From positions 1,365,501-1,429,500 of the forward strand of contig NZ_AP023367.1 in NCBI RefSeq assembly GCF_014218335.1: a stretch of 64,000 bases of DNA. Direction: 5' to 3'. The DNA comes from Anaerocolumna cellulosilytica. GTDB lineage: Bacteria > Bacillota > Clostridia > Lachnospirales > Lachnospiraceae. The position numbers and the translations under genes are program-made. Position 1 is the stretch's first letter. Each line of letters begins with the position of its first letter. This document shows positions 4,073-6,024 of this stretch, in pieces. The notes under the pieces were generated by a model, which worked only from the letters and a program-made list of their open reading frames with translations, did no database searches and was not told the DNA's origin.

Positions 4073-4486
4073 TTAGGGGGAAGTCTTTCCCTCTTTTGTT
4101 TTGATTTTTGGGAAATCACTTTGAATATTGTTTTCTCTACGGTAAAGTTGTATCATTAATCCTTTTATGTAATCTTTATTTTCATCACTTAGACGATTGT
4201 AATAAGTTAGAGCATTACTTTCATCTTTATTAAAAGAGCTGTTAGCATAAGTAACAGATTCTTTTGTTAAATCACTTTGAAAACCAAAATCCTGATGACT
4301 AAAAAGAAAATCAATGGAAACATTAAAATAATCTGCCAGTTTTAATAGAACTTCAGGGTCAGGTGTACTAAAATTGCGTTCATAATTAGACATGGTAGAC
4401 TTGCTGACTCCAATAATATCAGCCAAAGATACTTGAGATAATCCATTTTGTTGTCTTAAAGAACGAATTTTTTTGCCAATATCCAA
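4073..4486 (-). CDS. XRE-family repressor 1
   Basis: The 137-residue protein has an N-terminal helix-turn-helix of the Cro/CI-SinR type (residues 4-60; LSQVSLADIIGVSKSTMSNYERN). The C-terminal half is charged and helical, with no known domain. The start is TTG at 4486, with AAGGAG about 8 bases upstream. The protein is a paralogue of the one at 4848-5264; 30 or so residues around the recognition helix are almost identical, so the two may share operators. Between them lies a strong divergent noncoding transcript. The target is unknown. Confidence 0.85.
   Translation of the reverse strand: MDIGKKIRSLRQQNGLSQVSLADIIGVSKSTMSNYERNFSTPDPEVLLKLADYFNVSIDFLFSHQDFGFQSDLTKESVTYANSSFNKDESNALTYYNRLSDENKDYIKGLMIQLYRRENNIQSDFPKIKTKEGKTSP
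4076..4100 (+). terminator. Probable terminator of the GGDEF gene
   Basis: GGGGAA and TTTCCC arms with a three-base loop are followed by CTCTTTTGTTTTG. The hairpin overlaps the 3' end of the convergent XRE gene. Confidence 0.45.
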
Positions 4487-4565
4487 AATATCACTCCTTA
4501 TCTTGCGTGTTTTATTGTAATTACTTAAAAAACTGTATTATTTTTGAAAATATATCCAAAAACAT

Positions 4566-4594
4566 TTGACAAATTACAAATAATTGGATATAAT
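4566..4594 (+). promoter_or_regulatory. Perfect consensus promoter of the candidate RNA gene
   Basis: TTGACA at 4566-4571 and TATAAT at 4589-4594 are separated by exactly 17 bp. Both hexamers match consensus completely, the only such case noted in this window. Start is expected near 4601, where the first hairpin begins. The promoter sits about 80 bp upstream of, and divergent from, XRE gene 1. Confidence 0.8.
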
Positions 4595-4600
4595 AATGTC

Positions 4601-4895
4601 GTAGTCACTTAGGTGGCTACAGGTGCTTAAAACCTTCGTATCATTTTTAATAAGGCATAGGGGTAAAAAAAAACTCCCCTCAAATAGTAATTAGGATTCC
4701 CTATGCCTTATTAAAAATCCTAGAATGGTAAGTAAGGGGAGCATCAGCCTACTAAATAGCAGAGCGTGAACAGGCTGAATAGGATGAACATCATACAGCA
4801 AAATAAATGAAAGATTTGCAATCTACCAATCCAGAAGCCTAATTAATTTAGTTCGGATTCGTTTTTGGATCTTCAAACCCCGGAAGATCTTTTTT
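4601..4895 (+). ncRNA. Candidate structured noncoding RNA, about 295 nt
   Basis: No reading frame is present. The predicted transcript starts with hairpin GUAGUCAC-UUAG-GUGGCUAC (4601-4620). Next is a perfect 20-bp helix with arms at 4643-4662 and 4699-4718 (left arm ATTTTTAATAAGGCATAGGG). A CAGCCT/AGGCTG stem follows at 4745-4777. An alternative pairing of CTCCCC (4675-4680) with GGGGAG (4736-4741) is possible. It ends at an intrinsic terminator (4868-4895) inside the 3' end of XRE gene 2, so the last ~48 nt are antisense to that mRNA. I do not recognise a known class; a 6S-like RNA cannot be excluded. Confidence 0.65.
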
Positions 4896-5264
4896 CTGCG
4901 AATTTTCCTGCATGAGCAGATGTACCATCTGACCTTTGATATAATCCTTATGCTCCTCGCTTAAACGCCTATAATATTGAATTACTTTACCCTCATCCTT
5001 ATTAATGGAAGAACTTCCGTTATTATAGGAGGAAGACTCCTTTAAGGCCTCATATTGGGCAATCGTATCAGCACCGCTGAATATGTAATCAATGGAGACA
5101 TTAAAATAAGTTGTTAGTTTTACCAAAGTATCTGGGTCTGGGGTACTAAAATTGCGTTCATAATTTGACATAGTAGACTTACTGACTCCAAGTATGTGAG
5201 CCAGGTCTATTTGACTTAGATTATTCTCTAGTCGAAGTCGTCTGATTTTTTTACCAATATCCAA
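4848..5264 (-). CDS. XRE-family repressor 2
   Basis: The 138-residue protein has an N-terminal helix-turn-helix (LSQIDLAHILGVSKSTMSNYERN) and a helical tail. A longer frame runs upstream, but the start is best placed at TTG 5264: the bases before it (AAGGAGTGATATTTTG) are identical to those before the TTG of XRE gene 1, including the ribosome site and spacing. The two genes are a clear duplication. The 3' end contains an intrinsic terminator reading the other way. DNA target and role are unknown; regulation of each other or of the RNA between them is a reasonable guess. Confidence 0.85.
   Translation of the reverse strand: MDIGKKIRRLRLENNLSQIDLAHILGVSKSTMSNYERNFSTPDPDTLVKLTTYFNVSIDYIFSGADTIAQYEALKESSSYNNGSSSINKDEGKVIQYYRRLSEEHKDYIKGQMVHLLMQENSQKKDLPGFEDPKTNPN
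4868..4895 (+). terminator. Intrinsic terminator within the 3' end of XRE gene 2
   Basis: GATCTTC (4868-4874) and GAAGATC (4883-4889) pair perfectly around an 8-nt loop and are followed by six T. It works only in the plus direction and has no plus-strand gene just upstream other than the candidate RNA. Confidence 0.7.
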
Positions 5265-5508
5265 AATATCACTCCTTGTTAAATTAAATACTATCACAAA
5301 TATAACAAATTGTAATAACAATTTTGAAATTCGAAAAGGAATCCAATAATATTTAACTTACAGACAATTTAATGGAAAACCATAACCTCCTGTTTTAATA
5401 ATGCATGAAACATGTTATAATGGCAATACATAGTAATAGATTTTATTTAACTTTGTCTTGAGTAAAAAGTAACGATTCACTTGATTATTAGCAGAGAGGA
5501 AGATTAAT

Positions 5509-6024
5509 ATGTTGAAACCTGAAGTAGTAAGATTACTGAACGAACAGATTAACAAAGAATTTTATTCGGCCTATCTCTATATGGATATGGCAAACTACTA
5601 CGCAGACCAAAGTTTAAACGGTTTTGAGAACTGGTTCTTTGTTCAGATGCAGGAAGAAAGAGACCATGCATTGTTATTCCGTCAATACCTTTTAAACAAT
5701 GGAGAATCTGTAATATTGTCGGAGATAGCAGCTCCTTTTAAAAAGTATGAAAACTTTCGGGAGCCATTAGTGGAAGCCTTAGAACATGAGCAGTACGTAA
5801 CAGCTTCTATTAATGCTATATATGAAGAAGCATATATAAACAAAGATTTCCGTACTATGCAGTTTTTAGATTGGTTTATTAAAGAGCAAGGTGAAGAAGA
5901 GAAGAATGCGGATGATAACATCAAAAAATTTGATTTATTTGCAGGAGACCCAAAAGGCTTATACATGCTTGATAATGAATTAAAAGCAAGAGTATACGCG
6001 GCACCTTCCCTTGTATTAGAATAA
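5509..6024 (+). CDS. ftnA: Bacterial ferritin
   Basis: The 171-residue protein has the length and four-helix pattern of non-heme bacterial ferritin, which oxidises Fe2+ and stores iron in a 24-subunit shell. Ferroxidase ligands E17, E50 and H53 are visible in NKEFYSAYLY and QEERDHA, with further acidic residues in the third and fourth helices. AGAGAGGAAG lies before the ATG. A TATAAT box at 5416-5421 is a possible -10. A strong terminator follows, so it is monocistronic. Confidence 0.93.
   Translation: MLKPEVVRLLNEQINKEFYSAYLYMDMANYYADQSLNGFENWFFVQMQEERDHALLFRQYLLNNGESVILSEIAAPFKKYENFREPLVEALEHEQYVTASINAIYEEAYINKDFRTMQFLDWFIKEQGEEEKNADDNIKKFDLFAGDPKGLYMLDNELKARVYAAPSLVLE

Follow-up and report, generated by a model that had tools for sequence, protein, structure and literature searches.

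A predicted XRE-linked small RNA gene with an invariant C-rich loop in the genus Anaerocolumna

The window that we have analysed, i.e. the whole 64-kb stretch at positions 1,365,501-1,429,500 of the one-contig, 5.43-Mb genome of Anaerocolumna cellulosilytica (labelled G000), contains two paralogous XRE genes that are followed by a ferritin gene; the features of the locus, together with those of the related loci that are described further below, are listed in the table. The list of open reading frames has none of at least 60 amino acids between the two XRE genes, in agreement with the earlier note on this DNA, and the region between them contains the promoter that was described there as perfect: it scores 12/12, and it is the sole 12/12 site in the 2.5 kb scanned, where the number of promoter-like sites is ordinary (9 against 11.2 expected). 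Behind the promoter, we have found a 5' hairpin (8 bp, one G-U), the long helix, whose 20 bp are perfect as had been claimed, and the intrinsic terminator, located on the plus strand within the 3' end of XRE2, also as described. The self-matches from the search of the window's genome are exactly the two 20-mers of this helix, and the folding energy of the 295-nt RNA is -77.9 kcal/mol (z -3.5), a value that 0 of 200 shuffles reach. Within positions 4540-4600, the possible places for the binding of an XRE protein, as judged from the letters, are the imperfect dyad, whose counterpart is TGGAATTATTCCA in G002, G004, G010 and G013, and the TTTGACAAAT stretch.

Table. Features of the window, and of related loci (locus or genome handle given before the positions).
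Feature	Position	Strand	Remarks
XRE1	4073..4486	-	HTH_3 repressor-like protein of 137 aa with a TTG start; sRNA divergent
Imperfect dyad TTGAAAATATATCCAA	4544..4559		possible operator for XRE; 5' of the -35 box
sRNA promoter, TTGACA-N17-TATAAT	4566..4594	+
5' hairpin	4601..4620	+	at predicted RNA start; sequence not conserved
5' arm of long conserved helix	4643..4662	+
Apical loop motif ACUCCCCUCA	4673..4682	+	proposed seed; CCCCUCA = 4676-4682
CTCCCC	4674-4679		partner of GGGGAG
3' arm of long conserved helix	4699..4718	+
GGGGAG	4736..4741	+	able to pair with the loop
Intrinsic terminator	4867..4895	+	hairpin 4867-4890, T run to 4895; within XRE2 3' end
XRE2	4848..5264	-	XRE1 paralogue, 60% identity; start codon set by likeness to XRE1
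AATCCAATAATATTTAACT	5340..5358	+	5' of XRE2; possible decayed sRNA promoter
Ferritin	5509..6024	+
sRNA2	L082:1435-1562	+	46-nt core
sRNA2, window's genome	G000:C1:5006337-5006463		46-nt core
~600-nt type B presumptive RNA	L031:980-1650, L033:990-1640, L023:1035-1650		between XRE gene and large serine recombinase
Type C hairpin	L040:1501-1621	+	promoter-like TTGACT just upstream
Type C hairpin	L043:1501-1610	-	promoter-like TTGACT just upstream

The search of the 64-kb window against Rfam 15 has returned 0 matches at gathering score, so that 6S RNA and the other families of that release have been rejected as identities, just as the earlier note could not assign the RNA to a known class; in a permissive scan of positions 4300-5300, the best match is the miRNA model MIR1514 (25.8 bits against a cut-off of 90). 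The pemK RNA (RF02913, gathering score 34.8 bits) has likewise been rejected, as it does not match the window RNA, and neither the gathering nor the permissive scan gave a family for the relatives of the window RNA. A repeat or MITE has been rejected as well, as the genome holds three copies only.

The search at the DNA level in the 15 genomes of the genus has returned matches that mostly cover the promoter only, while one other match (L013) belongs to the 3' portion of the RNA; at the loci of five relatives, a long hairpin with an identical loop lies behind the promoter, and at a sixth promoter-like match (L011) no such hairpin is found behind it. A covariance model trained on six sequences, i.e. 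the window and the five relatives, has produced matches beyond the training sequences in G003 (7e-18), in G002 (4e-8) and in G010, G004 and G013 (2-3e-5). Its 37 rows comprise 17 described loci (11 of type A, 4 of type B and 2 of type C), 13 opposite-strand rows, which are the same near-palindromic loci read on the other strand, and 7 rows that were set aside; CCCCUCA does not occur in the five of these seven that were inspected. Type A denotes a locus that has the XRE gene, the divergent promoter and the hairpin together, and by inspection this unit of XRE gene, divergent TTGACA-N17 promoter and long hairpin occurs at 11 loci in 10 of the 15 Anaerocolumna genomes. With stricter filters, the hairpin model has matched two of 397 sampled Lachnospiraceae genomes, both of them Anaerocolumna.

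The comparison of the 11 type A loci separates the constant parts of the unit from those that are particular to the window. TTGACA and the 17-nt spacer are present at all 11 loci, followed by TATAAT in nine and by TACAAT in two, and the loop CCCCUCA is invariant (11/11), with varying bases before it. The 5'-terminal hairpin that had been placed at the predicted start is indeed present in the window, but only three of the 11 loci have one at or below -5 kcal/mol (window -11.0, G011 -6.9, G002 -5.8), and their sequences are unrelated. Of the proposed pairing switch, both GGGGAG and CTCCCC exist in the window, but GGGGAG occurs within 330 nt 3' of the loop at this locus only (1/11). The terminator is clear in the window, and a T-rich stretch 3' of the hairpin is seen in some relatives only. 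The promoter, the main helix and the loop are, by this comparison, the conserved parts.

The covariation of the helix, which the earlier note had proposed to check across 4643-4718 in related genomes, has been assessed in the 11 hairpins, aligned with MAFFT (29 pairs, 319 cells), against 500 shuffles: the helix is kept and the stems re-pair, with 92.2% of the 319 cells paired, double changes in 17 of the 29 pairs (50 cells) and a covariation score of 0.452. Four of the five covariation measures are reached by 0 of the 500 shuffles; the fifth, the number of further pair types, is ordinary (31 against 29.7 in the shuffles, with 176 of the 500 as high). When the partners are slid, 39-49% pair. 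The proportion of cells paired is a favoured measure, because the structure that is tested is the RNAalifold consensus of the alignment itself. In the same alignment, G-U occurs in 22 cells against 3 for A-C, and since G-U stands far above A-C, the plus strand is favoured as the RNA. The same counts bear on the reading of the region as a DNA element, i.e. an operator, a cruciform or a transposon remnant, which would suit its near-palindromic sequence and the position of a hairpin relative beside recombinases in mobile elements; the excess of G-U, the promoter at a fixed spacing just upstream, the loop that is kept while the stems change, and the presence of three copies in the window's genome, which do not amount to a repeat family, all stand against it, and we consider it highly improbable. 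On the sequence evidence, the region is a conserved RNA gene that has no Rfam match, and the earlier suggestion of a noncoding RNA gene is thus backed by conservation, by covariation and by the co-occurrence with XRE; it would represent an RNA family that is missing from Rfam 15.

Orthologues of XRE1 (54-65% identity) adjoin the other ten type A hairpins, and the XRE orthologue and the type A hairpin occur in an identical set of 10 genomes; in the remaining five of the 15 genus genomes, the XRE orthologue was not found at E 1e-15. As four of these five genomes are 63-91% complete, the absence is firm in G001 only, and the co-occurrence amounts to less than ten independent events, because the genomes are related and four of the five absences come from incomplete genomes. 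Three genomes have a further XRE paralogue, whose divergent region lacks such a hairpin. The RNA gene had been described as lying between twin XRE repressors: an XRE gene does stand beside it throughout, but the second, convergent one is found at the window only (1/11). The same count weakens the proposal that the 3' end of the RNA acts as an antisense to the XRE2 mRNA, as the 48-nt overlap (4848-4895) exists in the window but a downstream XRE-like gene on the minus strand is present at no other locus. The stretch 5' of XRE2, AATCCAATAATATTTAACT, is similar to G002 in the region of the operator and the -35 box: by eye, 16 of its 19 positions agree with the letters that lead up to and into that box. 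On account of this resemblance, XRE2 may be the remnant of a second copy of the unit, from which the RNA has disappeared.

The ferritin gene lies downstream at nine of the 11 loci, while both loci of G005 have other genes there, so that XRE, and not ferritin, is the constant partner; a conserved ferritin motif is found 238-884 nt from the loop at the seven loci where it was located, and two more were found besides. A leader or attenuator of ferritin, in which the hairpin would act in cis on read-through transcripts, draws on this position on the same strand, but in the window XRE2, encoded on the other strand, and the terminator intervene, the two copies of G005 precede other genes, at the loci viewed by eye ferritin appears to be preceded by a TATAAT of its own, and the ribosome-binding site of the window's ferritin ranks 188/358 as a partner of the loop; we regard such a leader as decidedly unlikely.

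The loop of the window RNA shares a 13-nt motif, UAUACUCCCCUCA, with the invariant, unpaired core of a second C-rich RNA, which we call sRNA2 and which was found through the pattern TATACTCCCCT as a locus in 11 genomes, with a variant in G007. On the sense strand, sRNA2 consists of a promoter, a hairpin, the core CACUAUAUAACCCCUUAUUAAU-(U/G)-AUUUAUACUCCCCUCAUCGAAAC and a terminator hairpin with a C-rich loop; apart from the one variable base, the core is identical at 11 of 11 genus loci. Its covariation is modest: the terminator cells are all paired and double changes are seen in two pairs, a count also attained by 307 of 500 shuffles, while the covariation score is matched by 0. The sRNA2 model has matched 12 of the 15 genus genomes (G007 at 0.0065 only), 181 of 397 sampled genomes of the family, in 152 of 334 genera, and 42 of 295 genomes in a sample of the order, 19 of them from other families, with at most three matches per genome. 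Its neighbour at 10 of the 11 loci looked at is what we take to be a rhodanese-like gene, mostly together with a presumed rlmL-like gene, and the other flank carries, at 8 of the 11, what is presumably a DUF1700-like gene; the locus L108 has other near neighbours. Rfam holds no family for sRNA2, i.e. an RNA that is far more widespread than the window RNA is likewise absent from that database.

Relatives of the hairpin also occur in two other contexts. In type B, found in G000 (at 1,358.5 kb), G002 and G013, the hairpin relative forms the end of a conserved, ~600-nt presumptive RNA, which is divergent from an XRE gene and 5' of a large serine recombinase (the Pfam search covered all three XRE proteins and two of the recombinases); by eye, genes appear to be interrupted at the ends of the element. 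A fourth copy in G000 (L038) has the hairpin and the recombinase, with only a small piece of what lies upstream in the others, a part of the stretch being masked. The type B RNA of L033 scores 24.8 bits as pemK RNA, below the cut-off of 34.8, and loci with pemK RNA scores of 64-69 bits contain the type B core; the ~600-nt RNA may represent a large RNA that has yet to be described. For the type B RNA at L023, blastn has given no match in phages and plasmids, and an exact 24-mer of the type B RNA has none in genome and viral contigs, a set possibly devoid of near relatives of the window's genome. As a side observation, the pemK RNA at L097, L098 and L099 looks like a part of a longer conserved leader, and the genes downstream of these leaders are presumably PemK-like and resolvase-domain genes. 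Type C comprises two loci (G010 and G004) in which the loop is kept but the stem, GGGGTTAC, is a different one; both lie on the 3' side of another XRE gene. By its sequence, the 5' arm of type C seems to be complementary to AACCCCUU, a motif of the C-rich sRNA.

These contexts allow for a broader reading, which we put forward as speculative and rather unlikely: a mobile 'seed-mimic' class, in which repressor-hairpin units that belong to serine-recombinase elements, and have settled in the chromosome, copy onto a long stem the seed of the C-rich sRNA that is the core one in the host family, and thereby put the core regulon under the repressor of the element. If the shared motif does mean shared targets, RNAs that are linked to repressors and to mobile elements would plug into the sRNA network of the host.

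In our target tests, the background of ribosome-binding sites is a sample from three genomes, with start codons picked roughly; against it, the window loop pairs at or below -12 kcal/mol with 60 of 972 sites, compared with 8 control stretches from coding and 4 from upstream sequence, and the reversed loop pairs with 56 of 972, about as many as the true one. The sRNA2 motif scores 96 against 120 for its reversal, which is therefore the better of the two, and only the second motif of sRNA2 (34 against 16) and the type B loop (126 against 87) exceed their reversals. Upstream of ATG, the strict anti-seed shows no enrichment in the 15 genomes (21 hits against 23 control hits), and the pattern TATACTCCCCT, with 59 hits against 41 in the control across the same number of genomes (36 of the 59 looked at), falls to background level when the 13 sRNA2 rows and 7 hairpin rows are subtracted (39). 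A target conserved across the genus was not found. A response-regulator gene with the anti-seed recurs in G013, G004 and G010 (L252, L255 and L257) with an identical leader, TGAGGGGAGGGTATTATATG; this leader makes it a candidate for regulation by the C-rich RNAs.

The mRNAs of XRE and ferritin have been rejected as special targets, as their ranks are ordinary against the background: the loop ranks 200/358 on its own XRE site in the window (for both XRE genes), 163/307 and 39/339, and the sRNA2 motif ranks 260/358, 45/307 and 131/339. These ranks weigh on a closed switch, in which XRE would repress the RNA and the RNA would block the translation of XRE, as the divergent arrangement and the co-occurrence of the two might suggest; some XRE ribosome-binding sites (AAGGGAGTGTTAT, GAGGGGAGTG) do resemble the anti-seed, but the sites vary by species (GGAGAGGTGAT in G013; by eye, also G004 and G010), and we consider such a switch very unlikely. 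The failure of the target tests to return a specific target, the long maintained helix and the recurrence of the same motif in different RNAs would suit an RNA that serves as a decoy or scaffold, its loop bound by a protein or its helix being a substrate of RNase III. No candidate protein partner is known to us, and unpaired C-rich motifs of Gram-positive sRNAs have Shine-Dalgarno targets according to two reports (PMC4132741, PMC9217828); the decoy or scaffold is, in our judgement, unlikely.

The reading that we prefer, and which we hold to be evenly poised between right and wrong, is that of a trans-acting sRNA that is linked to XRE and blocks Shine-Dalgarno sequences through its C-rich loop, in the manner of LhrC and RsaE. 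The sRNA would be transcribed from about position 4601 on the plus strand, probably under the control of the adjacent, divergent XRE repressor; its long maintained helix would expose the C-rich loop ACUCCCCUCA, which would pair with the G-rich Shine-Dalgarno sequences of mRNAs and block their translation. Since the loop repeats the sRNA2 motif UAUACUCCCCUCA, the window sRNA and sRNA2 probably act on overlapping targets, in which case sRNA2 would be the core regulator and the window sRNA an XRE-gated input. Comparative evidence from the genomes supports the gene, the helix, the strand, the invariant loop, the linkage to XRE and the shared motif. The window loop and sRNA2 fit the plan of LhrC and RsaE, and this class of mechanism, i.e. 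Shine-Dalgarno pairing by a C-rich loop, is plausible, although our tests of it are weak.

A narrow search of the literature for sRNAs in Anaerocolumna, or for intergenic small RNAs of Lachnospiraceae found by covariance model, has returned no report, a negative of little weight. A study of the transcription starts of C. phytofermentans describes novel transcripts (PMC5171806), none of which, supplements aside and in the accessible portion of the article, can be matched to the window RNA or to sRNA2; a search of PMC8040213 by terms has given no match.

Among known systems, loci that score as pemK RNA (RF02913) have a core in common with the presumptive ~600-nt type B RNA, at whose end lies the relative of the window hairpin, but the pemK RNA does not match the window RNA, and the type B RNA itself scores below the pemK cut-off. 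The csRNAs of streptococci follow a plan of complementarity to Shine-Dalgarno sequences. As proposed for the window RNA, they are small RNAs under one regulator (CiaR), but this is a response regulator and not an XRE protein, and they are five highly similar copies rather than different RNAs that share a motif. In RsaE of S. aureus, a UCCCC motif binds Shine-Dalgarno sequences, and GGGG stretches of a second RNA, RsaI, pair with this UCCCC seed (PMC9217828); the window RNA has a GGGGAG that is able to pair with its motif in a similar way, at one of the 11 loci only. LhrC of Listeria has three UCCC sites, located in a loop, in a single strand and in the terminator loop, which bind Shine-Dalgarno sequences (PMC4132741). 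Neither LhrC nor RsaE has kinship with the window RNA through Rfam; LhrC is tied to LisRK and the window RNA to XRE, and the latter has a single motif on a helix of ~30 pairs. What the window RNA has in common with LhrC is an unpaired C-rich motif that could lie opposite G-rich Shine-Dalgarno sequences, conserved in the apical loop region at 11 of 11 loci, and the presence of the motif on more than one RNA per cell, while sRNA2 resembles LhrC in its plan, i.e. a hairpin, single-stranded C-rich stretches and a terminator with a C-rich loop.
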